This document shows, one piece after another, positions 717 through 62,318 of a stretch of 64,000 nt of DNA (positions are counted from its first letter, which is position 1; every line of letters starts with the position of its first letter). The translations under genes were made by a program, and so were the position numbers. Origin of the DNA: a virus; the IMG/VR virus record IMGVR_UViG_3300020463_000001, positions 62,001 through 126,000 of that record; one strand, written 5' to 3'. The notes under the pieces were generated by a model that did not search any database, was not told the DNA's origin, and saw only the letters and a list, made by a program, of their open reading frames with translations.

Positions 717-722
717 AACATC

Positions 723-3019: not shown

Positions 3020-3023
3020 TTAA

Positions 3024-7238: not shown

Positions 7239-7247
7239 AAAAAGTTT

Positions 7248-7255: not shown

Positions 7256-7288
7256 TAGGATTAGACAATTTTTAGAGGATAATGATCA

Positions 7289-19599: not shown

Positions 19600-21576
19600 A
19601 TGGCAATAAAATTAATAAACAGTCTTAACGATTTGCCTAATTATGGTGTTTCTGTGTCTAGATCTGGGTTTACCAAACTCACAGATACTGGAGGAATCGA
19701 TAGCACTGGAGCAGTTTCTGGCGTGGGTCTCATGATGACTCTTGCATCAGATATGACTGCCAGCTGGCAACTATATAATGGAGATTCAACTCCAGACAAT
19801 AAAATACAATTGGTCGGTGTCGGAGATAATGCGAATACTGATGTTACTAAACAATTTTTTAATCAGTTGCCTATCAATTCTCAGACGTATTTCGGTCAAG
19901 CAAACTTCGGGCCAGTGGGAAATTTAAGACAACACGTTTTACTATTCGAAACAACCAACGAAATATTACCAAATCGCGGATCAGTATCTAGAGGAGTCGA
20001 TCAATCATATAGAGTAAGATTTGAATTTGATGAACGCCCCAGATTACATACAACAGATGTTGAATTTAATAGAGAACTGTATCAGTTAAATTTAAGACTG
20101 AGGTCTATGGGAAGAGCGCAGTATGTTGTCGGGTCTCAAATAAACGAAACCTCGACTTCGCAACATCAACTAGAAACCACTAAAGATGCAGATAATAATT
20201 TAGTTCATACTGGTTATACGTTCAACGGCACTTGGGCGGTATCCGATGGGATACCAAATTGTATGTATGGATGGATGAAAATTAATGTAGGTACATCAAA
20301 TCAACTTTTGAACAATGGAACTGTATTAGAATCGATATCGGGTAACGATGGTCTTATCACCCTAGAAAATGGATCTACTCTTACTACATCAGTTGTACGA
20401 ACTCCGGGCGAATTGGTAGATCTTCATTTTGAAGATGTGGTGATACCAGCACAATCTCTCGTTTTTCCATACGATGGTATTAATCAATATTCAGTGGGAG
20501 AAGTTATTTCTGGGCCTGGCGGAGCATCTGCTACTGTTCATAGTGTATCGACATCCTCTACAACTCAAAGTGTTACTTTTTCTGATTGGAATAACATCGA
20601 TTTTGATGAGGGGGAAACTATTACTGGCGCAAATAGTTCTTTGTCTCTTTCTTTAACTCTTGTTACTACACAAATAAATAGAAGTAAGAGATTTAGAAAT
20701 AAGAGAAAGGGAAAGGGTTGGTTCAAGAGATTTCCTAAAATTGGAACAAATCTTGAAGGAACTTATCCCATGTCATATCGATTAACTATGACAGAACGGG
20801 GATTTGTTTTATATATGTTTGATGATGCTGCCAGTGATCAATCAGATGATTATGCTTGGACTTGTGTTCAAAGAACTGTTGATAATACAGAGGGAACTAC
20901 GCCGTCAGACGAATCTACCAGATTTCCTGTCCATGTTCTATATTCTTGTTCCAGAGAAAGTGTATATGCGAGAGATTTCGGTGTATATTTCTCCGAGTCT
21001 GCCGCAAACCTTCAAACTGCAGAAACTGCAGTTAACAGTGTTTTTGATAATGAGGGGAATCAGTACACAGTAGATAGCCTAGGAAATGATAGTTTTTATA
21101 TTTTAAGTCCTTACGATAGAGAAGATTCTCTTGCAGATGAATTTACTGCAAAACTTATCTGGCGATTTGTTGCGAGAGAATTTGATATATTAAAACCTTG
21201 GGATGTTCATAAACTTGCGACTAAACACCAGACCGACAGTAATGCGATTATAAATCCTCTAGAACAGTTAGCAATCACTAACGACAATAGATTTGTAATT
21301 ACATTCCCAACTGGTTTGACAACGCAAAGATTTATGTATCCGAAAGAAGAAATAGACCTCATATGTTTTTCTTCTGCGGAGGTTGTGGCTGAAGGAAGTA
21401 ATGTTCCTATGAATACATATCTTCCTTCTGGAAACGCAGACAATAGAAGATATCAGGGAATGAGGTCAACTCTTGCTAATGGAAATGGCATGAGAATTAT
21501 GTTATTAGTGAACGGAAGACACATCTTTAACAGTGATGTTAACATTGGAACAGATACTTCCGCAAACTTAATTTAA
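19600..21576 (+). CDS. Group A appendage protein 1 (four-member paralogue family)
   Basis: 658 residues, the shortest and most divergent member. Family blocks seen: DQSYRVRFEFDERP near residue 133; a strongly basic patch RSKRFRNKRKGKGWFKRF near 360-378; YPMSYRLTMTERGFVLYMFD near 389; DDYAWTCVQRTVD; FPVHVLYSCSRES; RFVAREFDILKPWDVHKLAT near 521; TDSNAIINPLEQLAI; TTQRFMYPKEEIDLICFSSA; and a C-terminal YQGMRSTLANGNGMRI. The N-terminal 130 residues (LMMTLASDMTASWQLY, FGPVGNLRQHVLLFETTNE) are specific to this member. It has no signal peptide or membrane segment and is a soluble beta-rich virion protein by context. Its function is unknown. A perfect hairpin and a weak promoter-like box lie just upstream. 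Confidence 0.72.
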   Translation: MAIKLINSLNDLPNYGVSVSRSGFTKLTDTGGIDSTGAVSGVGLMMTLASDMTASWQLYNGDSTPDNKIQLVGVGDNANTDVTKQFFNQLPINSQTYFGQANFGPVGNLRQHVLLFETTNEILPNRGSVSRGVDQSYRVRFEFDERPRLHTTDVEFNRELYQLNLRLRSMGRAQYVVGSQINETSTSQHQLETTKDADNNLVHTGYTFNGTWAVSDGIPNCMYGWMKINVGTSNQLLNNGTVLESISGNDGLITLENGSTLTTSVVRTPGELVDLHFEDVVIPAQSLVFPYDGINQYSVGEVISGPGGASATVHSVSTSSTTQSVTFSDWNNIDFDEGETITGANSSLSLSLTLVTTQINRSKRFRNKRKGKGWFKRFPKIGTNLEGTYPMSYRLTMTERGFVLYMFDDAASDQSDDYAWTCVQRTVDNTEGTTPSDESTRFPVHVLYSCSRESVYARDFGVYFSESAANLQTAETAVNSVFDNEGNQYTVDSLGNDSFYILSPYDREDSLADEFTAKLIWRFVAREFDILKPWDVHKLATKHQTDSNAIINPLEQLAITNDNRFVITFPTGLTTQRFMYPKEEIDLICFSSAEVVAEGSNVPMNTYLPSGNADNRRYQGMRSTLANGNGMRIMLLVNGRHIFNSDVNIGTDTSANLI

Positions 21577-21592
21577 GTGATGAAAAAAGTTT

Positions 21593-21600
21593 TATAAATA
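21593..21600 (+). promoter_or_regulatory. T4-type late promoter box
   Basis: An exact TATAAATA lies in the 60-base gap before the gene at 21637. Predicted initiation near 21606 leaves a leader of about 30 bases carrying a strong AAGGAGA. Confidence 0.78.
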
Positions 21601-21636
21601 GTCAGATAAGTAAAATATGTCTCAAAGGAGAAAATA

Positions 21637-24600
21637 ATGCCTGTTGCAAGTGGATATAGTATTCAAAGAAATGAAATCATTAATATACCTCATCGTCAGC
21701 AATATGAAACCCATTCTGCTGAAGGTACAAAGAACCAGTTTTTCTTGAGGTCTAAGATTGATTTCGCAAGTAAAGATTGGGAGTGGAGCATCAAAGTTGG
21801 TGGTGTTCGCTATGATTTAGACAGAACAATCTCTCCTGCCTCTGTTACAAATGGAGGAAACTCCCAAAGAAATGCTCAGGGAGTTTCAGCGGCCAGCGGT
21901 ACTGCTTCTGGTAAGACTGACCAAGCAATTTGGGATTCTTCTACGGAAACCTATGCAGAAGGAGATACTGTTTCTGGATCTGGCGCGGTAAAGTTTGATC
22001 AGAGTCTTGGTGTATTCGGGGGCATCGAATTCGCACCAGAGTATACTCCATCCGGCAACGAAATCCTAGAGATTACATATCAAGAACATGAAACTCAATG
22101 GACTGGTTCCAGAGGCGGACTTCTTTTCCAACTTGCAAGTGATATGTGTATCCATCCGTATGATTCTCCAGAGATATTCAAGTATATGGGTTCCGCTAGT
22201 CCAATTGGACTTTCAGAGTCTTTTAGTGAGGACTTTAGTGAGAACCCAGCAACTAACACTGCTCAAGCGATTGAGGATGCTAGAAAAACTGCAAGAACTC
22301 CTAATGCGGTTTACAAACTTATTAGAGAACACTCAGTAACATATTCGGCTGTAGATATATCGGACTCAGATCCGTCCAACATTACTCCAAAAACATTAAC
22401 TAGTGATTTCCCATTTTCTATTGCTGATTTAGGAGACGGAGAATTCCGAGTATCTATTGCAGGAAGAGTTATCCAAGATGAATACTGGTCTGTTGAACAA
22501 AACTCAGATCGTTCTGTAACCATTAAGTTATTGGTTGCTTCTTCTGAATTCAACTGGGTATCTGACGCAAGTTCCGTCGAAGTTATTGTAGGTTTTCACT
22601 GGAAGCATTCACTCGCAGTTCCATTTGGTGCAAAGTTTGGGCCATTCGATCCTGACGGCGGACAAATCACATATACCAACCCGTCTTCTGGAAATAGAGC
22701 AACTATATTATTTTCTGATCTTGTCGATGATACCGATCCAGATAATCCGGTTGCGACTGGACTTAACACTGGTAAAACTCAATCTGCAGACTTAGATTTT
22801 ATCAAGTCAGGAGATCTGTTCCTACTAGAATTCAAAGATGACGAACAGTTTATCCCTGCGTTTAATCTGATTCACCCCAAACCAGTAAGTAATTCCAAAG
22901 AAGATGTTCTTGCTGCACTGAAACAAGTCACTACAAAATTTCTTGTAGAATCCGCAAGAGGAACTGACTTGCTATCAGATGACGAATTGACTCCGATCTC
23001 TACCGATCCAACATCAAATAAGACCAAACCACAAAACTGGAGAATTCGTTTTGAGTATAGTGGTGATGGTGCTCAGATTAAGGTCAATGTTGCAACAGAA
23101 TATCAACTCCTTGATGACATGACAATTACGCAAGGGCAAGGAAGAGATGGTGCGAAATATCCCATCTACAGAGAGCCGGGCGAATTATGTGATGTTTACC
23201 AAGAACCAAGTATTGGTCGAGGTGTTGTCACCAGAATTCAAAAGGCCAAGTCACAATTCTTTACAAGAGTTTCTAAATCTGAGGATGAGGTCGCAAGATC
23301 ATATCCAATGTCATATAGAATGACAGTAACCGACCACGGCATGGGATTGTTCATATTTGACCAAGCGTCAGTAGACCAAGATGATGATTATTCTTGGTTC
23401 GTTGTACAACGTCATGTTGATCAATCTACTGGACAACCAGAATTCTCAGGTAAGTCTCCTGTACACTGTGTATACTCGCCAACAAAACGACCAGTAGAAA
23501 TTAGTGATTTAAACACATATTACTCAACACAAGATGTTGCAGATCTTTCTAAGCCAAGAAATATCTTCGATAGTTTTGGTAGAGAATTAGAAACAGAAGC
23601 TCCTACAATCTTTGTAAATAGAGATCAGAGTTTCTTTAATGACTTTGTGAACGCAATTGACTTCACAGGAACATACGCTATTCCAGAAACTTCTGGTGGT
23701 CAATCGGTGTATAAAGATGAACTAGATGTTGGTTTTATCGGCGGTGCGGATGTCAGTGATGATATCGCAATACTATATTGGAATGATGGAGCAAGCGATC
23801 CCAAACCAATAAATGAATTACAAATTTTAGGATTTGAGAGATTAGGAAGATCTGGACAAGGAACAAATATCGGAAGGGTGGCCAATACTATTGGGCCATT
23901 TGCTACGGCGACAGCACCGTCTGTTTCGATTAATTCTCAAAATGGTGCAAGTTGGCAGACAAACCCAGCACAACAGACTGGAACACAACTTTCTGGAAAC
24001 GTAACATTCCCAGTTTCTGCATTAGAAGCAGTTTCTAATTTTGAAGATGCTACTAGTCAAACTCCGGGCCCGACTGCTACTGCTCCTGCAACTCTTTCAG
24101 ATTGGGACGATCCATCTTATGCACTCTTAGATATCCTCTTCAACGAAGTATCTGCAAACAGAGAAAAGGTATTTGAAAGTTTAGTAGTTGCTCTTGACGG
24201 AGTAGAAATCCTACGAGATCCTAACGCATATGTCCTTACATATGACGAATGGGTACGAAATGGAGATCCATCAACAGTACAAAGATTCTTAGAGGGTCTT
24301 GATAATGCTGGTGTTAAAAATTTTGGAACTAGCTTTAAGTTGCCGGAAAATTCTAGCAATGTCACTGCGAACTTTATCACTAACATTGGGAATGCGAAAA
24401 ACGAATCTAAGAGTACCAGTAGTCAGTCTGGAGACGATTATGATACTGACTTTGTAACTAATATACAAGGTCTAAATACAACAGCCTATCTAGTAATTTC
24501 TACAGATTCTGTTGGGTTGAGAGGTAAATTGCCAGGAGATCCAATCTTCTCAGATTACGGAACATCTCAGCTGAACTTGACTGCAGGGCCCAACAGGTAT

Positions 24601-25308
24601 CTGTATGACTTCTTCAACCAGACTCTGTACTTTAGAGACACACCAAGATCAGGTTCTTCGTTCTCTATGAAGTTGGTGAACTATAACTCATCTACTCCAT
24701 CACAGACCACATACATTGTGACGGTTCCGCCGGATAGAGATCTTCCGGATCGTAACCAAAACTCTGTTAAGACTATCAACAGGTTTATCGTAAGAGAAAG
24801 TGATGTATTGAAACCTTGGGATTATCATACTTCTGCAACAATGCATGAGGCAGATTCTAACTCAATCATCAACCCACAAGAGCAGTTGTCAATCACTCAG
24901 GATAGGGATTTCGTATTTAGTTTCCCAACTCAGTTGACTTCTCAGAGATTCTATTATCCTAGAAGTGAATTAGACTTGATTGCGATTTCTTCTGCTGACT
25001 TCTCTACACAGGCTGGTCACATTGAAATTGACAAGTATTCTGACTCTGACGGAAAGAACGGAACTCTATTTGTTGGCGCTAATCAAGAAGGTATCAATCC
25101 TACTGGAATTTCTGATAGTGCTGGGCCATTTAGGTTTGCAGCGCATACCGGGCCAGACAACAGACAGTACATCTGGAAGAAGAATAAGAGGAAGTATGAA
25201 GGTATGATGAGTACAGAACCAAATGGTAACGGTATGAGAGTGTTCTTACAGGTTACTGGTTCTAGTGTACGTTATAGTGATGTTACCGAAGGTGAAGCTC
25301 CAGCATAA
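21637..25308 (+). CDS. Group A appendage protein 2
   Basis: 1223 residues. The N-terminus SGYSIQRNEIINIPHRQQYE resembles that of the next gene (SSGFSVQRNEILTVQPPYYT). Family blocks: NWRIRFEYSGDGAQIKVNVA near residue 467 with ATEYQLLDDM; REPGELCDVY; SYPMSYRMTVTDHGMGLFIF near 554; DDDYSWFVVQRHVD; KSPVHCVYSPTKRP; RFIVRESDVLKPWDYH near 1049; DSNSIINPQEQLSITQD; TSQRFYYPRSELDLIAISSA; and YEGMMSTEPNGNGMRVF near the end. A variable insert of about 450 residues lies between the PVHCVY and VLKPWD blocks. Good Shine-Dalgarno and own late promoter. Close similarity to the following gene, also at DNA level near the VLKPWD block, points to tandem duplication. Virion role inferred; biochemical function unknown. 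Confidence 0.78.
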   Translation: MPVASGYSIQRNEIINIPHRQQYETHSAEGTKNQFFLRSKIDFASKDWEWSIKVGGVRYDLDRTISPASVTNGGNSQRNAQGVSAASGTASGKTDQAIWDSSTETYAEGDTVSGSGAVKFDQSLGVFGGIEFAPEYTPSGNEILEITYQEHETQWTGSRGGLLFQLASDMCIHPYDSPEIFKYMGSASPIGLSESFSEDFSENPATNTAQAIEDARKTARTPNAVYKLIREHSVTYSAVDISDSDPSNITPKTLTSDFPFSIADLGDGEFRVSIAGRVIQDEYWSVEQNSDRSVTIKLLVASSEFNWVSDASSVEVIVGFHWKHSLAVPFGAKFGPFDPDGGQITYTNPSSGNRATILFSDLVDDTDPDNPVATGLNTGKTQSADLDFIKSGDLFLLEFKDDEQFIPAFNLIHPKPVSNSKEDVLAALKQVTTKFLVESARGTDLLSDDELTPISTDPTSNKTKPQNWRIRFEYSGDGAQIKVNVATEYQLLDDMTITQGQGRDGAKYPIYREPGELCDVYQEPSIGRGVVTRIQKAKSQFFTRVSKSEDEVARSYPMSYRMTVTDHGMGLFIFDQASVDQDDDYSWFVVQRHVDQSTGQPEFSGKSPVHCVYSPTKRPVEISDLNTYYSTQDVADLSKPRNIFDSFGRELETEAPTIFVNRDQSFFNDFVNAIDFTGTYAIPETSGGQSVYKDELDVGFIGGADVSDDIAILYWNDGASDPKPINELQILGFERLGRSGQGTNIGRVANTIGPFATATAPSVSINSQNGASWQTNPAQQTGTQLSGNVTFPVSALEAVSNFEDATSQTPGPTATAPATLSDWDDPSYALLDILFNEVSANREKVFESLVVALDGVEILRDPNAYVLTYDEWVRNGDPSTVQRFLEGLDNAGVKNFGTSFKLPENSSNVTANFITNIGNAKNESKSTSSQSGDDYDTDFVTNIQGLNTTAYLVISTDSVGLRGKLPGDPIFSDYGTSQLNLTAGPNRYLYDFFNQTLYFRDTPRSGSSFSMKLVNYNSSTPSQTTYIVTVPPDRDLPDRNQNSVKTINRFIVRESDVLKPWDYHTSATMHEADSNSIINPQEQLSITQDRDFVFSFPTQLTSQRFYYPRSELDLIAISSADFSTQAGHIEIDKYSDSDGKNGTLFVGANQEGINPTGISDSAGPFRFAAHTGPDNRQYIWKKNKRKYEGMMSTEPNGNGMRVFLQVTGSSVRYSDVTEGEAPA

Positions 25309-25331
25309 GGAGTTCCCCCTTCGTAATATCT

Positions 25332-25339
25332 CATAAATA
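25332..25339 (+). promoter_or_regulatory. Late promoter box variant
   Basis: CATAAATA (one change from TATAAATA) sits in the 47-base gap before 25356. Predicted initiation near 25345 leaves about 11 bases containing AGAGGAAAG before the ATG. Confidence 0.55.
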
Positions 25340-25355
25340 ATATAAAGAGGAAAGT

Positions 25356-28300
25356 ATGTCTTCGACTTTGAATTATCCATTTAAGTCTTCCGGATTTTCA
25401 GTACAAAGAAATGAAATACTTACTGTTCAACCTCCTTATTATACTCACCTATTACAAGGAGATGGGACATCAACTTCGTTTCCAGTTTATGCGGAAGAAG
25501 GAAAGAAACCAAATCTGAACTTATCAGACGTTCAGCAGTTTCGCGTGTTTCAAAACTCTGTCAATGGGCCAGAATATAGTTTAGATAATATAACTGGCGA
25601 TTCTTCTTTCTCAAACAACGGCGAATTCTATTATACTCCTCCGCAAACTTCAGATGATTCTGATAACGGAACTATAACATTTAGAACTGCTCCAGCTGGA
25701 GGATTAAAAATTCTAGTTCAATACTTTCCTGTAGTTAACTCAGGAAATGCTGATCCAGCAGGAATTCTTCAGAGTCTTGCGAAAGATTTAACATTACATC
25801 CATATCGAAATGATTTCTCTGAAGCATGGTCATCTAATCAACAGAAGAAATCTACTGCCACCATTAATCTTGCAACTAATTTTGTTGAACAGTCAGGAAC
25901 CATAACAGTAACTGATTCTGATGGGGCCTCAGTCAATTTTGATGCAAATGATGTCGGAAAAAGAATTAGAGAGAAATATGGATCTGGTATGTTTGTGATA
26001 GATTCTGTTACAGATAATGTTGCAAATATAACTGTAGTATCACCAAAGTCCGATTCCTCTACGACTTCTTATACAGAGGGAGAGTGGATGTTAATAATTC
26101 CTAGCTCTGATGTAGAACCTCAAGCATATAATATTATTTATCCGAGAGTACAAGATTCTGATATTACACATCCATCAATAAATTTTGATGGACAACAAGA
26201 TCACACCTCAGTTATGGATTGTATCAGAAGAATCGGGTCTGTATTTGTAGTAGAATCGGAAAAGGGAACAGACATTCTTTCCTCACTAAAAGACATTGAT
26301 TCTTCTAATACATTTATACCTACTACTGCCGTTGCTTCTCAAGTCGCACAGGAAAATCGAACACCACAAAAATGGAGAATGAGATTCTTTTATGATACTA
26401 GAGATGAATACATTCATGTAAATATTGGAACTAAATTTCAAATAATGGACGATGGAGATATATCTCAAACAGTAGGCAGGGATGGCATAACATCTGGCCC
26501 CACAAGAAATCCCGGCGAACTTTCCGATGTATACTATAAGTTTGACGAAAGAGGAAATAAAGCAAAATCTGGTTTTTATAGAAGACAAGGAAAGACTGAT
26601 ACAAATATCGCTGGAAGTTATCCTATATCATATCGACTTACTTGTTCGGATCATGGTACTGCGTTTTTTATCCAAGATCAAGCATCTATAGACGATGATG
26701 ATTATGCATGGTTTGTTGTGCAACGTCATGTCAATAATATTTCTGGTAAAATAGATCTGGAAGACGGAAAGTCTCCCGTTCATTGTGTCTATGCACCCTC
26801 TAAGCGTCCCACAGAGGCGTCCGATTTTAACATGGGTTTCTATGCATCATATTCATCACAAACCTTTGCTAACGGAAAGACAGTCATTGAAACAACAGAT
26901 TTGGGCCCAATCTTTAAAACTGATGGAACTCAACTAACACCAGAGACACCAATACAATTTACCATCGTTACTGACAAAGATCCAGTAGCAGTTTCTTCTG
27001 CAGGAACATCATACTATAGAGGAACAAGTTATAGAATCCCTCCTAGTGATTACGATCCAATTCACGAAATCAATATTGCAGATTATGCTTTGGGTTCTGG
27101 AAACTATGCACTTCCTCTTGGATCTAATTATACTACAAAGGGTGTTTATAACAAACTTATGCCACCCGATGTGGGACTTAATACTGCAGGCGATATGTTG
27201 GGATATCCAATTGGTCAGACAGGAACTCCAACTCCCAACGCACCAACTGATGCGATAGAAACTGCAGATCAGGAATTTGCGGTCATATCTTATGCATCAG
27301 CAGCAACATCTGGTATTCAATTATCTAATCCGGATGGGCTTAAATATGTCCCTAAAAAATTAAATACATTAAGTCTTTCTAGACAAGAACAACTGGGCCC
27401 AGCAGAATCTGGGTTATCTCCATATCAAGTTCAAATTTTCGACATTGATTCTGGGGGAAGTAATGGGTTAGCCGATCTTGTCGAAGGAATAGATTATAAT
27501 ATTGTAAAAGAAAATGATGAATACTGGTACTTTCAATTTGTCACAAAAGATACGGATAATATCATTCCTAATGCATACATATCTGATCTTGTTGAGGGCC
27601 CAAATATGCCCGGCGCAAATTCTTCCAATCCTAAATCTTTATCTAGGATGGGGTGGTATGATTCTTCTGGCATTTTAGTCGAACCAAGAAATGTTCTATT
27701 AAACGGGGCAATCATACCAAGCTCGCATTATACTATTGATCAGGAAATAAACTTCACAGTCAAGGTTGCGGCTTTTAATATTCCGGCAGGGTTCGCCTCT
27801 GCAGATCTTACTTTTGATAATGGAAATAGAACAGCATCTGGAGTATCTGTAACACAGACCGGAACACAAGGAGAGTTTGCAGTTTCTGTAGTAGTTAATG
27901 AATCAGACTCGACACCTTTCCCAATAGGTTCCAGTGTTATTATGGAAGACTCTGGAAACACTTATACGTTTATTGTTGACGAAGTTTCTACAACTATGGT
28001 AATAGATCCGATATTTAAATATGTTAGGGGCGATACTGTAGTACTTGGTAATAGTGATGTACTAGAAATTAAATCTTATTTCAGTCCAGAGAATACAAAG
28101 ATTATTTTATCTTATGTTTGGAATGGGGCTGGTTATCAAAACAAATATATCAATCCATTTGGAGGTTCATCACAAATAAGATCACAAACTCAGATTAAAC
28201 CTCTTTATGAAGTTAATAGGTTAGATGTTTTTGTAAATGGAGTAGAAATTAATTCTTCTCCGTATCCAAATGGGTATTTTATAGAATCTGATGGTGATGT

Positions 28301-29117
28301 AACATTTAGAGATATAAGTTTGAGTTTACAAAACGAATATGTCTACTCTATGCCTCAGGATACAATATATATTAAGAATGATTTAGTGAAGGGAGAACAA
28401 CTCAAATTCTCTTATGAAAATTATAATTCTGCAGAGGAAACGGACTCTTCTGCAGCATCTTATTTGTTGGAAATACCAGAAGATAGAGATATACCAAGTG
28501 CTTGGTCTAATTTGCACAAAGATACAATTGCAATATACAGATTTGTTGTGAGAGAAGATGATGTTCTTAAGCCTTGGGATTTTCATGTGTCTGCGATAAT
28601 TCCACAAATAGATAGTCCAGCTATTATCAACCCACAGGAACAATTGTCAATCACTCAGGATAAGACTTTTGTATTTACATTCCCTTCTCCTTTGACAACT
28701 CAGAAGTTTATCTATCCAAACTCTGAAATGGATTTACTGTGTTATTCTGGTGCAAGTTCATCTACCCTTGGAGGATTCACTAGTATTGGTACTGCAGCGT
28801 CTCCTAAATACGATCTGGATGGAAAACAAGTAAGTCTTGCAACTGACATCACTGGATCTTACAGTCTCGACAACGGAATTGGAGTTGCGCCTAGCGCATC
28901 ATCTGCGGGGGATTATACTTCTGCGAGTGGTGATGTTCTTAACTACAGAGACATATATTCTTGGCACACCGGAACTGACACATCAACAACTTCTGCATCT
29001 AGATCTTATGTGGGTATGCAATCTACACAAAGTTATGGAAACGGCATGAGAATATTCGTTCTAGTAAGAGGTGGGCCAATCAATCCTATATATTCGGATT
29101 TTGTTGTTAGGACTTAA
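25356..29117 (+). CDS. Group A appendage protein 3
   Basis: 1253 residues, the nearest relative of the gene at 21637. Blocks: FSVQRNEILTVQPPYY at the start; QSLAKDLTLHPYRND near 145; QKWRMRFFYDTRDEYIHVNI near 337; NPGELSDVYYKFD; GFYRRQGK; SYPISYRLTCSDHGTAFFIQ near 421; DDDYAWFVVQRHVN; KSPVHCVYAPSKRP; RFVVREDDVLKPWDFH near 1061; AIINPQEQLSITQD; TTQKFIYPNSEMDLLCYSGA; and a terminal YVGMQSTQSYGNGMRIFVLV. The insert between PVHCVY and VLKPWD is unlike that of its neighbour, so the shared blocks are a scaffold and the insert is the variable part. The function is unknown and the virion location is inferred. An interlocked promoter and terminator follow the gene. Confidence 0.78.
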   Translation: MSSTLNYPFKSSGFSVQRNEILTVQPPYYTHLLQGDGTSTSFPVYAEEGKKPNLNLSDVQQFRVFQNSVNGPEYSLDNITGDSSFSNNGEFYYTPPQTSDDSDNGTITFRTAPAGGLKILVQYFPVVNSGNADPAGILQSLAKDLTLHPYRNDFSEAWSSNQQKKSTATINLATNFVEQSGTITVTDSDGASVNFDANDVGKRIREKYGSGMFVIDSVTDNVANITVVSPKSDSSTTSYTEGEWMLIIPSSDVEPQAYNIIYPRVQDSDITHPSINFDGQQDHTSVMDCIRRIGSVFVVESEKGTDILSSLKDIDSSNTFIPTTAVASQVAQENRTPQKWRMRFFYDTRDEYIHVNIGTKFQIMDDGDISQTVGRDGITSGPTRNPGELSDVYYKFDERGNKAKSGFYRRQGKTDTNIAGSYPISYRLTCSDHGTAFFIQDQASIDDDDYAWFVVQRHVNNISGKIDLEDGKSPVHCVYAPSKRPTEASDFNMGFYASYSSQTFANGKTVIETTDLGPIFKTDGTQLTPETPIQFTIVTDKDPVAVSSAGTSYYRGTSYRIPPSDYDPIHEINIADYALGSGNYALPLGSNYTTKGVYNKLMPPDVGLNTAGDMLGYPIGQTGTPTPNAPTDAIETADQEFAVISYASAATSGIQLSNPDGLKYVPKKLNTLSLSRQEQLGPAESGLSPYQVQIFDIDSGGSNGLADLVEGIDYNIVKENDEYWYFQFVTKDTDNIIPNAYISDLVEGPNMPGANSSNPKSLSRMGWYDSSGILVEPRNVLLNGAIIPSSHYTIDQEINFTVKVAAFNIPAGFASADLTFDNGNRTASGVSVTQTGTQGEFAVSVVVNESDSTPFPIGSSVIMEDSGNTYTFIVDEVSTTMVIDPIFKYVRGDTVVLGNSDVLEIKSYFSPENTKIILSYVWNGAGYQNKYINPFGGSSQIRSQTQIKPLYEVNRLDVFVNGVEINSSPYPNGYFIESDGDVTFRDISLSLQNEYVYSMPQDTIYIKNDLVKGEQLKFSYENYNSAEETDSSAASYLLEIPEDRDIPSAWSNLHKDTIAIYRFVVREDDVLKPWDFHVSAIIPQIDSPAIINPQEQLSITQDKTFVFTFPSPLTTQKFIYPNSEMDLLCYSGASSSTLGGFTSIGTAASPKYDLDGKQVSLATDITGSYSLDNGIGVAPSASSAGDYTSASGDVLNYRDIYSWHTGTDTSTTSASRSYVGMQSTQSYGNGMRIFVLVRGGPINPIYSDFVVRT

Positions 29118-29132
29118 ACCTTAATAAATTAT

Positions 29133-29140
29133 CATAAATA
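29133..29140 (+). promoter_or_regulatory. Late promoter box variant fused to a terminator
   Basis: CATAAATA ends one base before the left arm of the terminator at 29141-29166. Transcription from it would begin near 29146, inside that arm, so the new transcript could not form the full hairpin. It would serve the acidic repeat protein at 29183. Confidence 0.55.
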
Positions 29141-29166
29141 AAAGGAGGCTTGTGTCTCCTTTTTTT
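29141..29166 (+). terminator. Intrinsic terminator after group A protein 3
   Basis: AAAGGAG (29141-29147) pairs with CTCCTTT (29156-29162); two further pairs (G48-T55, C49-G54) can close the loop. Seven T residues lie at 29160-29166. It would end transcripts from the group A genes upstream. Confidence 0.8.
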
Positions 29167-29182: not shown

Positions 29183-32100
29183 ATGGCAGATTTTAAAACA
29201 ATATTTTTATTTGAAGATTATGTCGCTACGGAGATTGGCGCACAACCTCAATCTGTCGGATCGAATGAAATTTTAGTTTCCGGCTTGGATGATTCCGTTG
29301 TACTGGTTTTTCAAAATGGATTTATGTATGTTGATGATATTTTCTGGGGAAATATCGTATCCGTACAAAATGGCGATAGGCTACGATTACAAGTTAATCA
29401 TCAAGTTATAAACGAACCAGTAGAATATGAAATACTGGTTCTAGAAAGATCTTCTGGGTTTGTCTTTGAGGTCACTGATTCCTTTACATGGAATGTGGAA
29501 ATAAATGATCCTCTGGCAAATGAACCGGCAAAATTTTCAACACAATCTTCCACCGACGAAAATAATAGAATATCAGACATTCTGACATCTATTGTTGCTT
29601 CGAGTTTATCAGAAGCGATTACTGCGAATAGAAGTTCTGCAACCTCTACATTGGGCCAAATAGAACCAGAATTAATTCTAGAAGTTTTACAAAAGGCTGG
29701 ATTTATAGAAACAGATACTTCTGGAGAAATAGATTTAAATTCTCTAAGTCAAGTATTTGACAGCTTTAGAGAAATTATAAACGATACCTCTAGAAATATT
29801 GTAGAAGATATTTTATCCGACGAAACTCTAATACAACAATTCACTTCAGATGCTGAAGAAAATTTAATAGTAGACATAGAAAATACTTCAGAACAATTAA
29901 AAGAATCATTCACAAATAGATTGAACGAAATGTTTTCTGAAGTATCAGAAACTACTTCCGTACAAACTACAGATACAGATGAAACTCAAGACATTTCTGC
30001 AATAGATTCTACTACTATTGCAGAAGAATCATCAATAACTTCAGAAACGACACAAATAAATGTTTCTGAATTGGTAGAAGAAAAAACACAAACACTGACA
30101 GAAACAAAAGAAGTATTACAATCAATTCAACAATCTGTGGACGAGAGTTCTGATGATGCGGATTTGTCTCAACAGGCGTTTGCAGAATTCTTAGAGTCAA
30201 CTGAAATTAATGATAAAGTTCTTGGAGAACTTTCTGAGTTAATTGATTTACAAGATCCAAAACCAATAGATGAATTAATTGAGAATGTTGAACAATCTAT
30301 ACAAACATTCCAAGATTTACAAGAAATAGAACAATCTAATCCTCAAGTATTTGTAGATATTCAAGAAGCACTAGGAATTAATGTAGATCCACAGTTTGAT
30401 GAAACATTAGATATCATACAAGAAAATACCCAGTTATTTGGTGAGTTGGATGATCTAATACAAACTAATTTACAATTATTCCAAACCTCATTAGAAACCG
30501 ACAGGTTTGAAGCGAAATCTTTCCATGAAATAAGGTCAATAGGTTTCAGAACTATAGATGAATTTAGTGATAGGTTGTTTGCGGAACGATCAGAAATAAT
30601 AGATGTATTGACAAAATTAGTTTCTGAATTTATAGAAGAAGCCCTGATAAAAACCTTAGTCACTGCTGAAGAAGAATTATTAGTCGATGCACTACAGAGA
30701 TTGTTTGGAGAAGAACAAGAATCCTTTGATTTAGAAACTATAAGAAGAACAGAGATAACAGACATAGATGATGTCTTCGCAAAAACTTTAATAGAAGAAC
30801 TAGAAAAACAATCAGAATTTCAATATGATTTAGCAGAGACAACTCTCTTAGATACTCTGGTCAATCTCAATATTGTAAGTTTCGTAGAAACATTCCTAGA
30901 GAATGTTCAAAATCTAATAGAAGATACTGATAAGGTTCAGTTACTAGATCAAACCCTTATATCAGAACTAGAAAATAATTTTGAAAGTTTAATAATAGAA
31001 TCATCTTTTGATGATATAATTGACGAATTGAAGGCCTTAGATTTTACTGAAGATGTCCCAGAGATACAGGATCTATTGAGGTTTGTATCTACAGAAGAAA
31101 GTGAATTTGTAGAAAATATTTTAAGATTATTTGATACCGACGATTCAATCAGTGGCGAATCTATAATAGAAGATGAAACTACCGAGAGTGTCACTGGAGA
31201 AGAATCAAGAGAGGAGGAAACTGACTCTATTGTTTCTGGAGAAGATTCTATAGGAGATGAAACCGACGAAACAATTTCATCATCCGATGTAATAGGAGAC
31301 GAAAGCACTCAGACTGTTACTGGAGAGGAAGAACGCGAAGAAGAATCTGATTCTACTATCTTCGGAGAAGATATTATAGGAGATGAGTCTTCTACCACAA
31401 CAGAAGGTACGGACACTGTTGGAGAAGACACACAATCATCTCAATTAGCAGAAGACGAATTAGGAGAAACTTCTCCAGAGATTGTAAACGCAGAACAAGA
31501 AGTAATAGATACAGGAGATTCTTCAGATGTTTCAGAACAAGAAGTAGTCGATACTGGTGATTCTTCAGATGTTTCAGAGCAGGAAATAGTAGATACTGTT
31601 GCTCCTCCAGATAACGCAGTAGATCCAATATCTGATGTTGGTATATCTTCTGATGAAAGTTTAGAAGAATCCTCCGATACTGTTGCTCCTCCAGATAACG
31701 CAGTGGATCCAATATCTGATGTCGGGTTATCTTCTGATGAAGCAGAAGAAGAAGCATCCGATATATCAGATCCAGCAGATGAAGTATTGGAAGATGCTCC
31801 GGATGTGTCTATATCTCCAGAAGATGCGATAGAAGTTACAGAAGACACTGCGATATCTTCAGATGTCGGTGAGGTAGATCCAAATGACACTGGCGATTCG
31901 GCAGATCTTGGTGAAGTTCAGCCAGATGACACTGGTGATTCCGCTGATGTCGGAGAAGTAGATCCGAGCGACACTGGGGATTCTGCTGATGTCGGAGAAG
32001 TAGATCCGAGCGACACTGGGGATTCTGCTGATGTCGGAGAAGTAGATCCAAATGATACCGGAGACTCTACTGATGTTGGTGAAGTAGATCCAAGCGACAC

Positions 32101-32614
32101 TGGTGATTCTGCTGATGTTGGTGAAGTAGATCCAATAGACACCGGAGACTCTGCTGATGTTGGAACAGAACAACCAACAGATACTGGAGATTCTGCGGAT
32201 GTCGTTGAAGAAACACCTTCTCAAATCGGCGATTCTACCAACGATTTTGAAGAAGACCCATCTATCGTGGGCGATTCTACAGATGTAGTCGAAGACGATC
32301 CAACAAACATAGGAGATTCTTCCGATGATGTTGAAGATGAAGTAAGTGAAATAACAGATGAAGCAGACGAAACTGAAACTGACGCAGGAAATATTAGTGA
32401 TGGTGCTGGTGAATCAGAGACTCCGTTAGACAATGCAGACGACGGACAAGATCCAGATGAGGTGAACGATGACTTTGAAACAAAGGGAATCATACAACTC
32501 CGAGACGGGACGATGACATTTTATAAACTAAGACCATTCAGAATCGCAACTTCTGATCAATTCATTGGGCCATTTATAGATAGACTTGGAATAAGTAGGG
32601 ATATAAGGTTATAA
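29183..32614 (+). CDS. Very acidic protein with 31 tandem 14-residue repeats
   Basis: 1143 residues from the ATG at 29183. A TTG at 29150 extends the frame by 11 codons but lies inside the terminator hairpin and is rejected. Residues 1-115 form a beta domain (FKTIFLFEDYVATEIGA, DSVVLVFQNGFMYVDDIFWG). Residues about 120-655 are E/Q/L/I-rich and helical, probably coiled coil. Residues 657-1090 are 31 consecutive 14-residue units without a single insertion or deletion, best units VGEVDPSDTGDSAD; this part has no lysine and only two arginines. A short C-terminus (GTMTFYKLRPFRIATSDQFI, DRLGISRDIRL) is basic again. I do not recognise a family. It lies among virion genes and ends one base before the next start, so a virion protein is likely. 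Extended acidic stalk, cation-binding solenoid or disordered spacer are all possible. Confidence 0.75.
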   Translation: MADFKTIFLFEDYVATEIGAQPQSVGSNEILVSGLDDSVVLVFQNGFMYVDDIFWGNIVSVQNGDRLRLQVNHQVINEPVEYEILVLERSSGFVFEVTDSFTWNVEINDPLANEPAKFSTQSSTDENNRISDILTSIVASSLSEAITANRSSATSTLGQIEPELILEVLQKAGFIETDTSGEIDLNSLSQVFDSFREIINDTSRNIVEDILSDETLIQQFTSDAEENLIVDIENTSEQLKESFTNRLNEMFSEVSETTSVQTTDTDETQDISAIDSTTIAEESSITSETTQINVSELVEEKTQTLTETKEVLQSIQQSVDESSDDADLSQQAFAEFLESTEINDKVLGELSELIDLQDPKPIDELIENVEQSIQTFQDLQEIEQSNPQVFVDIQEALGINVDPQFDETLDIIQENTQLFGELDDLIQTNLQLFQTSLETDRFEAKSFHEIRSIGFRTIDEFSDRLFAERSEIIDVLTKLVSEFIEEALIKTLVTAEEELLVDALQRLFGEEQESFDLETIRRTEITDIDDVFAKTLIEELEKQSEFQYDLAETTLLDTLVNLNIVSFVETFLENVQNLIEDTDKVQLLDQTLISELENNFESLIIESSFDDIIDELKALDFTEDVPEIQDLLRFVSTEESEFVENILRLFDTDDSISGESIIEDETTESVTGEESREEETDSIVSGEDSIGDETDETISSSDVIGDESTQTVTGEEEREEESDSTIFGEDIIGDESSTTTEGTDTVGEDTQSSQLAEDELGETSPEIVNAEQEVIDTGDSSDVSEQEVVDTGDSSDVSEQEIVDTVAPPDNAVDPISDVGISSDESLEESSDTVAPPDNAVDPISDVGLSSDEAEEEASDISDPADEVLEDAPDVSISPEDAIEVTEDTAISSDVGEVDPNDTGDSADLGEVQPDDTGDSADVGEVDPSDTGDSADVGEVDPSDTGDSADVGEVDPNDTGDSTDVGEVDPSDTGDSADVGEVDPIDTGDSADVGTEQPTDTGDSADVVEETPSQIGDSTNDFEEDPSIVGDSTDVVEDDPTNIGDSSDDVEDEVSEITDEADETETDAGNISDGAGESETPLDNADDGQDPDEVNDDFETKGIIQLRDGTMTFYKLRPFRIATSDQFIGPFIDRLGISRDIRL
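31151..32452 (+). repeat. 31 tandem 42-base units coding 14-residue repeats
   Basis: In-frame units begin every 42 bases from 31151. The middle units (31865 to about 32200) are nearly identical; the flanking ones keep length and acidic pattern but differ in sequence. Two adjacent 42-base copies (31946-31987 and 31988-32029) are identical base for base. An 84-base double unit is itself duplicated (31592-31675 and 31676-31759, APPDNAVDPISDVG). This suggests growth from the middle by slippage or unequal crossing over, with older units at the edges. Confidence 0.92.
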
Positions 32615-32615: not shown

Positions 32616-35291
32616 ATGCCAGTATTTTTTGGATCCGGTAATATAATAACGAAAGCGAAGACAGTTCGTATGTCTTCATTTATCTATACTGAAGCTTCCG
32701 AAGTTGATATTACCTATGAAAACCACTTCAAAGAATATGTCATTGACATGGTTGATGGGTTTTCTGAGCGTCAAAATATTTACTATGATCCATTTAAATA
32801 CAGCGATTATCTTGACCGAGTTACTTCTACTTCATTTGATACCAAGGAAGTCTATAGTGGAGAAAGATACAATACATTTTTCAATTCCCCCGAGCATAAC
32901 TTGGAATATATTTTGGGATCTTCTTTTAATACAGAAGACAACACTAATCTTATAAACACCAAATATGTTTCGGAGATATATCAATCTCTGGATAATCTTC
33001 TTTCTACTGGAATGTCTTACGAAGAAGTAAGTGCAAAAATTCGAGTGCAATTGTTAGCATATTCATTTATGACTCTAGATGTATTTGAAAGAAAGAAAGA
33101 GTACGCTCTTAGAAATTTAAATATAGTCGAGGATCAAATAAAAGAACTTGGCGGACAAGATATAGAATCGAAACAATTACTTCAAGCACTTTATTTTAGC
33201 ACAAGTAGTCAAGATGTTAAATCCGCACTAAATCCTCTTGACGGAACTCTCAATTTAAATATTGTTACTGAACTATTTATTAAATCTAGACTAGAAGACT
33301 TCTCACTAAATAAGAGTTCGTTTATTTTAGATATAGAAGAAAGGGGAATATACAAAGAAATAGAAAGGGCCACTTTTGAAGAAACTGTTCCCATTCTACA
33401 AAATCCGGAAACTGGTCTTTACTATCTAGAGTTTAAAGATACGATAGAACAGATAGACGATTCTATGTTTTTTGATAACGATGTGGATAGAGTGTATGAG
33501 GCTCAGAATTTAATATACGGAAGTCCTAATGTAGAATATCATCCAATTAATAATTTCTTCCAAAGATATATGCCAAGACAAGCAGCATCAGGTGAACATC
33601 ATGAAATCATTTCGGATCTTGTAATTGAAACTGAATTTTATACCCAAGAGAAAAATGATATATTAATTAACCTAGAACCAAAGTATATCTCAGATAACGA
33701 CAAGACTTTTATTCGTAGTATATTCTATATTGAACTAGACGATTATCAGGATTATCTTGGTTATGTTCCATATGTTAAATCTTCTACAGATACTGCATAT
33801 ATTCCGGACGAACAGTTTTTACAAACAAAAGTTCACATCCCAGATAAGAATATCTTTAAGTTTAGATATGAAGAAATTAAGTTTGGTGGTAAATATGTGG
33901 TCACTGAGGCTGGAGAAGTATTTGTATTTTACAATACTATGGAAGCAAGATATGCCGGATACTATAAAGACTATGATACTCTTTATGAATACATCAATGA
34001 TTTATTCTTATCGACAAACTTGTCTTCGCATGATTCTATAAAACCACATGAAACATTATATTATAGACCAGAATCAAATCATCCAATAAACGGAGGATCT
34101 CATTTGGGTCATACTGTTCCTCATGTTATGGTCATGAGTAATAGCACCAGACTTATGGAAACAGAATACATAAAAGAAACTACTGCAGAAAATGTTGATC
34201 AAGAATACAGATTCTTTCAAAGTGTTGTGGGAAGAGATGCGGCGTTTGGAAAACTTTTTGAGTTTGACCCAGTATATCACGATTTAGATCAAAACGCAAT
34301 AGGAGATACTTTTAATTTTGTTTATGAGGTGGTCAGTGGCAGATTGCCTAATTGTTTGACTCTCAATAATTCTATCATTAGTGGAAATATAGGAGAAACA
34401 GAACAGTTTCTGAAACAGTATTCATACGAATCGTGGATTAAAAATCAAAATCTAGAAATAGATACCAACTACGAAGATTTCAATCCAGAAGAGGTCAAGG
34501 AAATAGAAGTTACAATTGTTGGTAGGGCCACAACGCGAGGAACTATAGATATTATAGATGACGTTGGATTTTCTATTGGAGATATTATAACACAAAGAGA
34601 CAGTTCTGGCAACTTACAGGGTTCTGCTACAATAACTAGAATTCTATTTAATTACATCAGAGAGTTTTCTGTTCTTGGCGCAGACCCACAAGATCTCAAT
34701 ATTATACGATATGAAATAGATAATATTGAAGGCTCATTCATCGCATCAGAGATAAATCAGATAATTGTGAACGATGAACTGAGAATTGTACTAGAAAGTA
34801 TCCAAAGGGCAAATGGGTTGATGGTTCTGGAATCAGAATTATCTACTGCTAGTGGATTAATAAAACAAATTGACTTAATTTTCCCCATAAATAATAATTA
34901 CACCTATGATAAAGATAGGTTCTTATTAAATACTGAAGGTATATCTGACAGAGAAGATCAATATGAATGGTTGACCTACATGAGAAGTCAAGGTCATTAT
35001 AGATTTGATGTAGATGCGAATATCGCTGCAATACAAGAATCCATAAATGAATTGACAAAGGATTACAGAGCAGGCAGAACCAATCTTACTCAGAAACAGT
35101 TTAATGAAGAAATAGAGTTTCTGGAGTTATCGAAAGGTAATCCTTTCGAAGAAGAAACTTACGAAAGATTAGAAAGAATAGAAGAATTTAAATTGGATTG
35201 TAAAGAAGAAGTGGACGAACAAACTTACTACGAAGACAATCCAGAAAGAGTTACGACAAGAGGATACCCAATATATGTCAGCTGTAACTAG
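32616..35291 (+). CDS. Virion structural protein with Ig-like segment
   Basis: 891 residues, start one base after the previous stop. The body is rich in Y, D and E. Residues about 548-595 contain AIGDTFNFVYEVVSGRLPNC then LTLNNSIISGNI, resembling the putative-Ig (He_PIG-type) pattern LPxGLxLxxxxGxIxG. The C-terminal 100 residues are helical (IAAIQESINELTKDYRAGR, FLELSKGNPFEEETYERLER) and end YPIYVSCN. Beyond that I recognise no family. The last 17 bases overlap the PAAR gene, so both may be made together; this protein might hold or be tipped by the PAAR cone, which is inference from overlap only. Confidence 0.72.
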   Translation: MPVFFGSGNIITKAKTVRMSSFIYTEASEVDITYENHFKEYVIDMVDGFSERQNIYYDPFKYSDYLDRVTSTSFDTKEVYSGERYNTFFNSPEHNLEYILGSSFNTEDNTNLINTKYVSEIYQSLDNLLSTGMSYEEVSAKIRVQLLAYSFMTLDVFERKKEYALRNLNIVEDQIKELGGQDIESKQLLQALYFSTSSQDVKSALNPLDGTLNLNIVTELFIKSRLEDFSLNKSSFILDIEERGIYKEIERATFEETVPILQNPETGLYYLEFKDTIEQIDDSMFFDNDVDRVYEAQNLIYGSPNVEYHPINNFFQRYMPRQAASGEHHEIISDLVIETEFYTQEKNDILINLEPKYISDNDKTFIRSIFYIELDDYQDYLGYVPYVKSSTDTAYIPDEQFLQTKVHIPDKNIFKFRYEEIKFGGKYVVTEAGEVFVFYNTMEARYAGYYKDYDTLYEYINDLFLSTNLSSHDSIKPHETLYYRPESNHPINGGSHLGHTVPHVMVMSNSTRLMETEYIKETTAENVDQEYRFFQSVVGRDAAFGKLFEFDPVYHDLDQNAIGDTFNFVYEVVSGRLPNCLTLNNSIISGNIGETEQFLKQYSYESWIKNQNLEIDTNYEDFNPEEVKEIEVTIVGRATTRGTIDIIDDVGFSIGDIITQRDSSGNLQGSATITRILFNYIREFSVLGADPQDLNIIRYEIDNIEGSFIASEINQIIVNDELRIVLESIQRANGLMVLESELSTASGLIKQIDLIFPINNNYTYDKDRFLLNTEGISDREDQYEWLTYMRSQGHYRFDVDANIAAIQESINELTKDYRAGRTNLTQKQFNEEIEFLELSKGNPFEEETYERLERIEEFKLDCKEEVDEQTYYEDNPERVTTRGYPIYVSCN

Positions 35292-35562
35292 ATTAGGAGA
35301 CTCTTGTACGGGTCATGGTTGTTATGCGCCTAGAGCTTGCATCAAGGGTAGTAGTAACGTCTTTGTGAATGGAAAGGCGGCACATCGAAAAGGAGATGCT
35401 TGGAATCTACATCCTTGCGGAAACTCTAAACATGGGGGAGTTACTTCTGTGGGATCTTCTAGTGTTTATGTAAATGGAAAACCTCTTGCGAGAAAGGGAG
35501 ATCCAATATCTTGTGGATCTGCTATCTTGCAGGGAAGTGACAATGTTAGTGCTGGTGGGTAA
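35275..35562 (+). CDS. PAAR-motif spike-tip protein (T4 gp5.4-like)
   Basis: 95 residues with the hallmarks of a PAAR protein: TRLGDSCTGHGC, RACIKGSSNVFVNGKAAHRK, GDAWNLHPCG, a second repeat VGSSSVYVNGKPLARKGDPI and a final GSAILQGSDNV. Family members fold into a sharp cone that caps the spike of contractile tails and bind one metal ion; candidate ligands here are the C and H residues of CTGHGC, HPCGNSKH and SCGSA. In T4 the equivalent gene 5.4 follows gene 5; here it is about 34 kb away and overlaps the 891-residue gene by 17 bases. It could cap gp5 or decorate another spike. Confidence 0.9.
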   Translation: MSAVTRLGDSCTGHGCYAPRACIKGSSNVFVNGKAAHRKGDAWNLHPCGNSKHGGVTSVGSSSVYVNGKPLARKGDPISCGSAILQGSDNVSAGG

Positions 35563-45930: not shown

Positions 45931-48504
45931 ATGTCTAATAAGTATATTAAATTTCATGGCATTAAGCTTGCAGACAATTCAGTAATCGAAAGTTTACGAA
46001 TTGAGCAGGTGGCTGCCGACCCTACACCAGCATCCGCTGGTCGTTTGTGGTATAATACTACTGAAAAAGTATTTAAGTTCTCCAGTTTAGACGGAAGCGA
46101 TCAAGTCGTAGTACGTCAAGCGGTTACACTCACAGAGATGACAGCGGCAATTGCAGTAGAAACATCTGCTAGAATTGCGGACGTTAATGCTGAAGAATCC
46201 GCGAGACAATCTGCTGACGCGGCGATTCAATCTGAACTAGACGCCACACAAACTGGTGCTGGTCTATCTGCTGACGGCTCGTTAGCCAGTCACAGTGGAA
46301 CAAACTATATTGACAGTGCAACAACCCTTAAAGGGACTGACGCATTGTTGGATGCTGCGATTAAAGCAGTATCAGACGAAATCAACACTAGCCAATCTGG
46401 CACAGGGTTGAACTCAGACGGTACTTATACCGCTGATGGTTCGTCAAACTATATTTCTGGTGCAACCTCATTAAAGAATGCAGATTCTTTATTGGATGCC
46501 CAGATCAAGACAAATGCTGATGCGATTACTTCAGAAGCAACTTCAAGAGCTTCTGCAGACAGCGCAAACGCAACGTCTATTGGAAATGTACAATCTGAGT
46601 TGGATGCAACTCAAACAGGTGCTGGACTTGGTGCCGATGGTGCGTATAGTGCTAATGGTGCTACTACTTACCTCACAGGTGCAACTTCATTGGTTTCTGC
46701 CGATGAAGCATTAGATAGCGCTGTTGCTGCAGTTCAGTCTGAATTAGATGCAACACAAACTGGTGCTGGTCTTGGAACAGGTGGTGCTTACACTGCAAAT
46801 GGTTCTACGAACTATCTTGCTTCTGCGACTTCATTGGTATCTGCTGACGAAGCTCTTGATGCACAGATTAAGTCTGTTGCTGATTCAGTTGCTGGTTCCG
46901 TATCTAGTGGTATCACAGGACTTCAATCAGAAGTTGATGCCATAGAAAACGCAGTAGGTCTTGCTGCTGATGGATCGTTTGTATCATACAGTGGTACTAA
47001 CTATCTTGACTCAACAACATCTATGAAGACTGCTGACGAAGCACTTGACAGTGCAACTAAGGCAGTATCTGATGTTGCTGACGCTGCAGTAGTGAGAGCT
47101 GGTGATACGATGGGTGGTACTCTGAATATGAGCACCAACAAAATCACTAACTTGCCTACTCCTTCTGACGATGCGGATGCTGCGACTAAGGGTTATGTAG
47201 ACGCAACTGCTTCTGGTCTTGATGTTAAGGCATCAGTACGAGTTACTACAACAGGAAATGTAGACCTTTCAAGCGCACTCGCTAATGGTTCAACAGTTGA
47301 CGGTGTTACACTGTCAAGTGGTGACAGAGTACTTGTTAAGGATCAAACAGACGCATCTCAGAACGGTATCTATGTTGCTCAGGCATCTGGTGCTGCTGTA
47401 AGAGCTGCGGATTTTGATTCTGACCCAGAAGTTACTTCTGGTGCGTTCACATTCGTTGAAGAAGGTACTACAAACGCAAGCAACGGTTTCGTACTTGTAA
47501 GTGCAGATAACATCTCTGTTGGTTCTACCAACATGACGTTTGAGCAGTTCTCAGGTGCTGGACAAATCGAAGCTGGTGCTGGTATTAAGAAGAATGGTAA
47601 TGAACTATTCTTGTCATTTGGTGCTGGTGTTGTAGAACTACCTTCCGACGAAATCGGTCTAGACCTTGCGTCTGATTCTGGTTTGATGTTGTCACAAGAC
47701 GGTTCTAGTGCTTCAACTCATACTGATGCTACGCTTCAGATGAAGTTAGACGGTGCCACTCTTACAAAGACGGCCTCTGGTGTTAGAGTTGCTGCTTCAA
47801 TAGTCAGTGACATTTCTACACTTCAGTCTGATGCTACTAGTCTCCAATCTGAATTGGATGCTACTCAGACAGGTGCTGGTCTTGGAACAGACGGTTCATA
47901 CAGTGCAAATGGTTCTACCAACTATCTTGCTTCTGCTACATCATTGGTTTCTGCTGACGAAGCTCTTGATGCACAAATCAAGTCTGTTGCAGATTCAGTT
48001 GCCGGTTCAGTATCTAGTGGTATCACAGGACTTCAAACAGAAGTTGATGCTGTAGAAACCGCTGCTGGTCTGAATGCAGATGGTACGTTCTCTGCTCACA
48101 GTGGAACAAACTATCTTGATTCTGCGACAACGATGAAGGAAGTAGACGCTGCACTAGATTCACAACTTGCATCTAGTACTGCTGAGTTAGACTCACTGAT
48201 CTCTGATGTTGAGGGTGACCTCTCAACAGAAACTGCTGCTAGAATTTCTGGTGACAGTGCGATCAGATCTGCCGTAAACTCTACGAAGTTTACCTTCCAG
48301 TCTACATCAACAGCTACGACTCACACAGTTTCTCACAACTTGAACTCCAACTTCTTGGTTGTACAAGTTATGGTACTGGGTGATGACGGATTGTATGCTA
48401 ACGATCTCGTACCTGTAGAAGAGACTGACGCAAATACTCTTACTTGCTACTTAACAGAAGCAAGACACGTTAGAGTATCTGTAATGTCAATGTCAGATAT
48501 CTAA
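45931..48504 (+). CDS. Major fibre protein with ELDATQ repeats (group C)
   Basis: 857 residues. At least five helical repeat units carry ELDATQTGAGLxxDG (or TSQSGTGLNSDG) followed by TNYLxSATSLxxADEALDAQI, alternating with EETSARI-like coiled coil. In the middle (residues about 403-540) is a widespread fibre module: KITNLPTPSDDADAATKGYV, SSGDRVLVKDQTDASQNGIY, NGFVLVSADNISVGS. The C-terminus (TTHTVSHNLNSNFLVVQVMV, DDGLYANDLVPVEETDANTL) is a beta tip. It has its own late promoter and is closed by the strongest terminator in the window, so it is a single-gene unit. Codons ending in T in Gly/Ala/Ser (GGT, GCT) are noticeably favoured over neighbours, consistent with high expression. It is probably an abundant trimeric fibre. 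Confidence 0.85.
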   Translation: MSNKYIKFHGIKLADNSVIESLRIEQVAADPTPASAGRLWYNTTEKVFKFSSLDGSDQVVVRQAVTLTEMTAAIAVETSARIADVNAEESARQSADAAIQSELDATQTGAGLSADGSLASHSGTNYIDSATTLKGTDALLDAAIKAVSDEINTSQSGTGLNSDGTYTADGSSNYISGATSLKNADSLLDAQIKTNADAITSEATSRASADSANATSIGNVQSELDATQTGAGLGADGAYSANGATTYLTGATSLVSADEALDSAVAAVQSELDATQTGAGLGTGGAYTANGSTNYLASATSLVSADEALDAQIKSVADSVAGSVSSGITGLQSEVDAIENAVGLAADGSFVSYSGTNYLDSTTSMKTADEALDSATKAVSDVADAAVVRAGDTMGGTLNMSTNKITNLPTPSDDADAATKGYVDATASGLDVKASVRVTTTGNVDLSSALANGSTVDGVTLSSGDRVLVKDQTDASQNGIYVAQASGAAVRAADFDSDPEVTSGAFTFVEEGTTNASNGFVLVSADNISVGSTNMTFEQFSGAGQIEAGAGIKKNGNELFLSFGAGVVELPSDEIGLDLASDSGLMLSQDGSSASTHTDATLQMKLDGATLTKTASGVRVAASIVSDISTLQSDATSLQSELDATQTGAGLGTDGSYSANGSTNYLASATSLVSADEALDAQIKSVADSVAGSVSSGITGLQTEVDAVETAAGLNADGTFSAHSGTNYLDSATTMKEVDAALDSQLASSTAELDSLISDVEGDLSTETAARISGDSAIRSAVNSTKFTFQSTSTATTHTVSHNLNSNFLVVQVMVLGDDGLYANDLVPVEETDANTLTCYLTEARHVRVSVMSMSDI
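46741..46968 (+). repeat. Direct repeat copy 1 within the fibre gene
   Basis: About 228 bases closely matching 47851-48078, coding the unit from ELDATQTGAGL through GSVSSGITGLQ and the following helix. The two copies lie 1110 bases apart in the same frame; silent differences are scattered through them. Confidence 0.8.
47851..48078 (+). repeat. Direct repeat copy 2 within the fibre gene
   Basis: Second copy of the unit at 46741-46968, with runs such as the SADEALDAQIKSVADSVAGS coding segment nearly identical. Recombination between copies would remove the central fibre module and keep the frame. Confidence 0.8.
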
Positions 48505-62317: not shown

Positions 62318-62318
62318 C

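Follow-up and report, generated by a model that had tools for sequence, protein, structure and literature searches.

An acidic array of 31 fourteen-residue units with a constrained motif, encoded among phage baseplate and tail genes

The acidic-repeat gene and its neighbours

The analysed stretch of 64,000 nucleotides, referred to as the window, corresponds to positions 62001-126000 of a virus record 200,733 bases long. Its features are listed in Table 1. The acidic-repeat gene sits between homologues of the T4-type proteins gp25/gp6/gp8 and those of gp13-15, and these gene neighbours back the label of a virion-locus protein given to it in the initial annotation. Three consecutive sheath-related genes lie directly upstream (19600-29117) and matched phrog_12249 with E-values of 4e-49, 6e-45 and 6e-35. 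Tail-fibre matches to PHROG models are also present around the gene. The 891-residue gene on its 3' side was found as well in four of the related contigs described below (L006, L007, L008 and L014). The gp6-like protein has its closest matches in marine Kyanoviridae, namely Melnitz and HTVC008M, and these two phages also have a similar gene order. Because the gene lies among T4-type baseplate and tail genes, its product probably belongs to the baseplate or a fibre, and this position suggests that it is present in the virion. Tail tape measure proteins are likewise long helical phage tail proteins, but the acidic protein had no PHROG match to them and the genome contains another candidate, so this assignment was rejected.

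A usual sheath gene, separate from the upstream trio, was located at L024:2093-4147. Relatives of the second sheath-related gene occur in Erwinia and Dickeya phages and in phage NCTB. The latter also encodes a strongly acidic protein near sheath-like genes, which was dismissed as a relative, as its sequence is unrelated and consists of D/E runs. The fibre-like gene at 45931-48504 contains a tandem repeat of its own at 46594-46853 with a period of 144 bp (48 residues, 1.8 copies).

Table 1. Coordinates of the acidic-repeat gene, its parts and its neighbours. Positions are those of the window unless a contig is given.
Feature	Coordinates	Strand	Remarks
gp5-lysozyme-type, gp25-, gp6- and gp8-like baseplate proteins	237-8977		PHROG models
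Three consecutive tail-sheath-related genes	19600-21576, 21637-25308, 25356-29117	+	phrog_12249
Terminator-like hairpin with T tail	29140..29163	+	10 pairs, z -3.2
Whole acidic-repeat gene	29183..32614	+	1143 aa, ATG start
N-terminal region, ~aa 1-110, predicted beta strands	29183..29512	+	low-confidence model (strands 27-105)
Thr/Asp/Glu-rich stretch with one SVQTTDTDETQDIS unit	29954..30061	+	lag-14 signal absent in the window virus
Helical, coiled-coil-like region, aa 313-655	30119..31147	+	hidden 14-residue period, predicted helices
Acidic array, 31 x 14 residues	31151..32452	+	in-register split, lag-14 identity
Array units 1-8, diverged, S/T-G-E type	31151..31486	+	lag-14 identity 0.34
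Array units 9-17, intermediate	31487..31864	+	lag-14 identity 0.38; two near-identical 28-residue supra-units DTVAPPDNAVDPISDVG
Array core units 18-25, motif [VLI]G..xPxDTGDSxD	31865..32200	+	invariant positions, dN/dS about 0.11
Array units 26-31, diverged C-terminal edge	32201..32452	+	lag-14 identity 0.44; gapless alignment with distant relative L014
Conserved non-repeat C-terminal segment, 53 residues (KGIIQLRDGTMTFYKLRPFRIATSDQFIGPFIDRLG...)	32453..32614	+	near-neutral charge
Next gene, 891 aa	32616..35291	+	no confident family match
PAAR spike-tip protein	35275..35562	+	PF05488 E 1e-14; phrog_281 E 1.6e-33
Head-tail adaptor, head closure and sheath stabiliser proteins	61568-63931		PHROG models
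Tape-measure candidate	L023:10278-12752	-	phrog_58 E 1.5e-4

The ATG start is supported by the start peptide MADFK/MPDYK, which is common to the relatives L002/L006 and L003/L007. An alternative in-frame TTG at 29150 is less likely, as it sits within the strong terminator-like hairpin that separates the acidic gene from the sheath-like gene before it. L006 and L007 have the hairpin sequence at the same place before the gene, and its retention suggests a transcription boundary at this point. The N-terminal region gave no family match and has a dN/dS of 0.06-0.08 where dS could be estimated; it is a candidate attachment domain. For the C-terminal segment, dN/dS was about 0.08-0.11 in most comparisons.

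Two regions with a fourteen-residue period and their relatives

The initial annotation had divided the protein from SGESII onwards into 31 consecutive 14-residue units with no insertion or deletion. The split was reproduced exactly, with SGESII at aa 657 (nt 31151) and the end at 32452. Lag-14 identity of the array was 0.48 compared to 0.116 ± 0.015 in 5000 shuffles (maximum 0.176). The diverged edge units are genuine members of the array as well, since lag-14 identity exceeded every shuffle in each edge block (shuffle maxima 0.23-0.28, with 0.28 for units 1-8). The strongly acidic composition without lysine was likewise recovered, with D 87, E 66, S 59, T 42, R 2 and K 0; thus, Asp and Glu make up 153 of the 434 residues, and the net charge is -0.35 per residue. 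Units 20, 21 and 23 are the exact string VGEVDPSDTGDSAD. The two supra-units among the intermediate units (31592-31763) are kept in L006, L007 and L008.

A second, hidden period was detected upstream of the array. Residues 313-655 showed excess identity at lag 14 (z 4.2), lag 28 (z 4.4) and lag 42 (z 2.2) and no excess at lags 7 (z -1.1), 21 and 35. General amphipathic helicity would also lift lags 7, 11 and 18. The same 14-residue period runs over the corresponding helical region of L006 and L007. The hydrophobic period of the region is 3.55, which together with the predicted helices would fit a coiled-coil-like shaft of double heptads. When the phase of the helical period was compared with that of the array, the best phase was non-significant, and no claim is therefore made that the acidic array is a phase-continuous descendant of the shaft.

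Among 2.9 million viral contigs, the gene was found in only five others, namely L006, L007, L008, L014 and L004, of which L014 contains the C-terminal part only and L004 is broken off before the array. The window has 31 array units, and four other contigs have 30, 27 (L007), 30 and at least 9. The length changes of the array amount to 14, 28 and 28 residues, all multiples of 14. Register-breaking insertions or deletions were thus absent from the arrays of these few relatives, as expected from the initial annotation, and every change corresponds to whole units. Outside the array, length changes of 1 and 60 residues occurred, plus a net 28 in the Thr/Glu-rich stretch. In L006, the stretch at 29954-30061 is expanded by 28 aa to three 14-residue units of the type SVQTTDxDETQDxx and forms a second small array (lag-14 z 6.6). 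The neighbouring genes also show few small indels, so that the absence of such indels from the array, taken alone, is only suggestive of constraint.

No convincing relative was found in annotated phage records. The one candidate, a 31% match in EBPR podovirus 1 that carries no annotation, was judged to be compositional chance. A 28-residue open stretch in another contig, the only additional hit of a DNA scan for DTGDSAD, was rejected as a chance match. Searches of Pfam, PHROGs, NCBIfam and PDB sequences gave no usable match to the acidic protein, in line with the earlier statement that no named repeat family has this unit. Judged from these searches, the array is a new repeat unit of a small family, so far seen only in a few viral contigs.

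Two further observations were made on the relatives. L007 and the window are diverged in the N-terminal half (57% by tblastn), whereas their last array units and C-termini are almost the same, a contrast which suggests recombination inside the gene. The gene family is also carried by L019 (PAPS01000031.1), which is binned in a Saprospirales MAG. This match is the same 37,816-base contig as L008, and it therefore does not count as evidence for a cellular home of the gene; L019 is likely a viral contaminant of the MAG, or else a hint to the host.

Constraint on the repeat unit

Core units 18-25 of the window were compared as paralogues and gave a dS of about 1.03 and a dN of about 0.11 (dN/dS about 0.11). 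Since synonymous sites are near saturation while dN stays low, the core units are not recent copies of each other. Comparisons of the core between viruses gave dN/dS values of 0.08-0.15. Across five viruses, 32 core units distinct in nucleotide sequence were compared; G2, P6, D8, T9, G10, D11, S12 and D14 were invariant in all of them, with synonymous variation in the codons of most of these positions. D8, D11 and D14 were never replaced by Glu, and T9 was never replaced by Ser. Recent duplication or gene conversion would have homogenised the synonymous sites too; it is therefore the amino acids that are conserved as such. If only acidity were selected, D could be exchanged with E and S with T, which was never seen at these positions. 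The core is accordingly a constrained motif, PxDTGDSxD. On this sequence comparison, the array core is regarded as old and constrained at the level of the motif.

The proposal of the initial annotation that the 14-residue period is itself under selection holds in part. Amino-acid-level constraint on the unit supports it, while the strict register is weak proof, because 42-bp tandem duplication also yields multiples of 14 and because small indels are rare in neighbouring genes. The same points would suit a plain acidic disordered linker, the register of which merely results from 42-bp tandem duplication: the array is predicted to be disordered, unit-length duplications give a register without structure, and even neighbouring genes rarely show small indels. 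Such a linker is improbable, however, as the D, T, G and S positions are invariant at nearly saturated synonymous sites, which differs from the prediction of composition-only selection, and recent homogenisation would have wiped out the synonymous differences as well. Tethers made of acidic repeats tend to be discounted as low-complexity filler. In the phage array, old core copies keep their Asp, Thr, Gly and Ser while the codons drift, which means that the unit does something specific.

The D14 codon is GAT in 74 of 78 cases. This bias was rejected as a special signal, since GAC before G would make a CpG, which is probably the explanation.

Predicted structure and possible function

AlphaFold2 was applied to the full protein (six sequences) and to 14 core units (four sequences). 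The full-length model placed strands at aa 27-105 and helices at 127-650 and left the array without either, with very low confidence (pLDDT 33 for the array). The core units were modelled with a pLDDT of 45 and a pTM of 0.11 and with no helix or strand besides one three-residue turn. As the alignments were only 4-6 sequences deep and even the N-terminal region scored low, the low confidence is weak proof of disorder. In a charge-hydropathy analysis, the N- and C-termini came out on the folded side, and the array fell far inside the disordered zone. The solenoid or cation-stapled rod suggested initially is not borne out by these results. For a beta-solenoid, no strands were found in the array and pTM was 0.11, a result of limited weight given the shallow alignment. 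Taken together, the models and the charge-hydropathy analysis argue against a constitutive solenoid; ion-dependent folding is outside their reach.

The reading given preference, which is held with about even confidence, is an elongated, fibre-like structural protein associated with the tail or baseplate of an uncultured T4-like marine phage, with an array that is a disordered acidic tether carrying a constrained motif that is read. The protein would consist of a beta-strand N-terminus, a helical shaft with the 14-residue period, the polyanionic array of 31 x 14 residues and the conserved C-terminal segment. The array is interpreted as extended and intrinsically disordered because it is without predicted structure and lies far below the hydropathy boundary of folded proteins; in this state it would most likely hold the C-terminal segment off the shaft. 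The PxDTGDSxD motif of each unit would be read, be it by a divalent cation, by a repeated surface of a partner or by an enzyme that modifies it, and the copy number would shift in steps of whole units as 42-bp segments are duplicated in frame or lost.

A known counterpart is the SD-repeat stalk of staphylococcal surface adhesins, such as the R domain of ClfA, an acidic Ser/Asp tandem array of variable copy number which is predicted to be disordered and joins a functional domain to its anchor (PMC3324548). Such stalks illustrate that strict repetition does not by itself imply a fold. The phage array has 31, 30, 27 and 30 units in the viruses compared and conserved segments on both sides, and it is predicted to be disordered. 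The SD unit differs in having 18 nt and only S and D, whereas the phage unit has 42 nt or 14 residues, fixed Gly, Pro and Thr and, altogether, G, P, T, V and A beside S and D. A pure tether would not need such a strict motif, so that an ordered or ligand-bound state is possible.

One such state is a rod stapled by cations, disordered in the host and adopting a 14-residue fold upon contact with Ca2+ and Mg2+ in seawater, similar to RTX domains with a different unit. RTX domains fold with Ca2+ and are disordered in its absence (PMC4642704, PMC4303809). Their make-up of Asp/Gly-rich tandem repeats, with Asp residues that could bind Ca2+, is shared by the phage array. Cation binding by the array is possible from its sequence, as all 32 nucleotide-distinct core units have Asp and not Glu at positions 8, 11 and 14, surrounding G10; the strong purifying selection on the unit and the array length changes in whole units are also in favour of a rod. 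The RTX unit comprises nine residues, XUXGGXGXD, and forms a beta-roll (PMC6891781), while the phage period is 14, GGxGxD does not occur and no Ca2+-binding repeat family was matched in Pfam or the other family searches. No strands of an RTX-type beta-roll were present in the 14 core units, which were modelled ion-free from a shallow alignment, and AlphaFold2 produced no repeat fold. The array also has few hydrophobic residues to build a core, and a coil of 14 residues is short for a beta-solenoid. A rod of this kind is therefore considered unlikely. A further version, in which the array represents a new cation-responsive class of 14-residue repeats that is floppy in the low-calcium cytoplasm, stiff in seawater and derived from the shaft, is quite unlikely.

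The motif-level conservation and the three sheath-related genes directly upstream would also be in agreement with a multivalent docking array, in which each unit binds one repeated partner such as successive sheath-like or fibre rings. Fourteen extended residues measure approx. 40-47 Angstrom by own estimate and would span one ring. The partner is hypothetical, though, and the array length is not proportional to tail length, because 31 units in the window and 27 in L007 stand against tape-measure candidates of 824 and about 800 aa. Docking of this type is thus very doubtful, and a function as tail-length ruler is disfavoured by the same comparison of copy number and tape-measure length.

Should divalent cations or a periodic partner turn out to be bound by the motif, extended virion parts would be seen to use a new repeat unit, which would at the same time act as a simple switch, open to testing, between the host cytoplasm and seawater. 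Human HDAC6, a eukaryotic enzyme, has acidic tandem repeats of 14 residues as well, the Ser- and Glu-containing SE14 tetradecapeptides, which are linked to intracellular retention and tau interaction (PMC3615964); they are likened to the phage units by this description only, and homology is not claimed.
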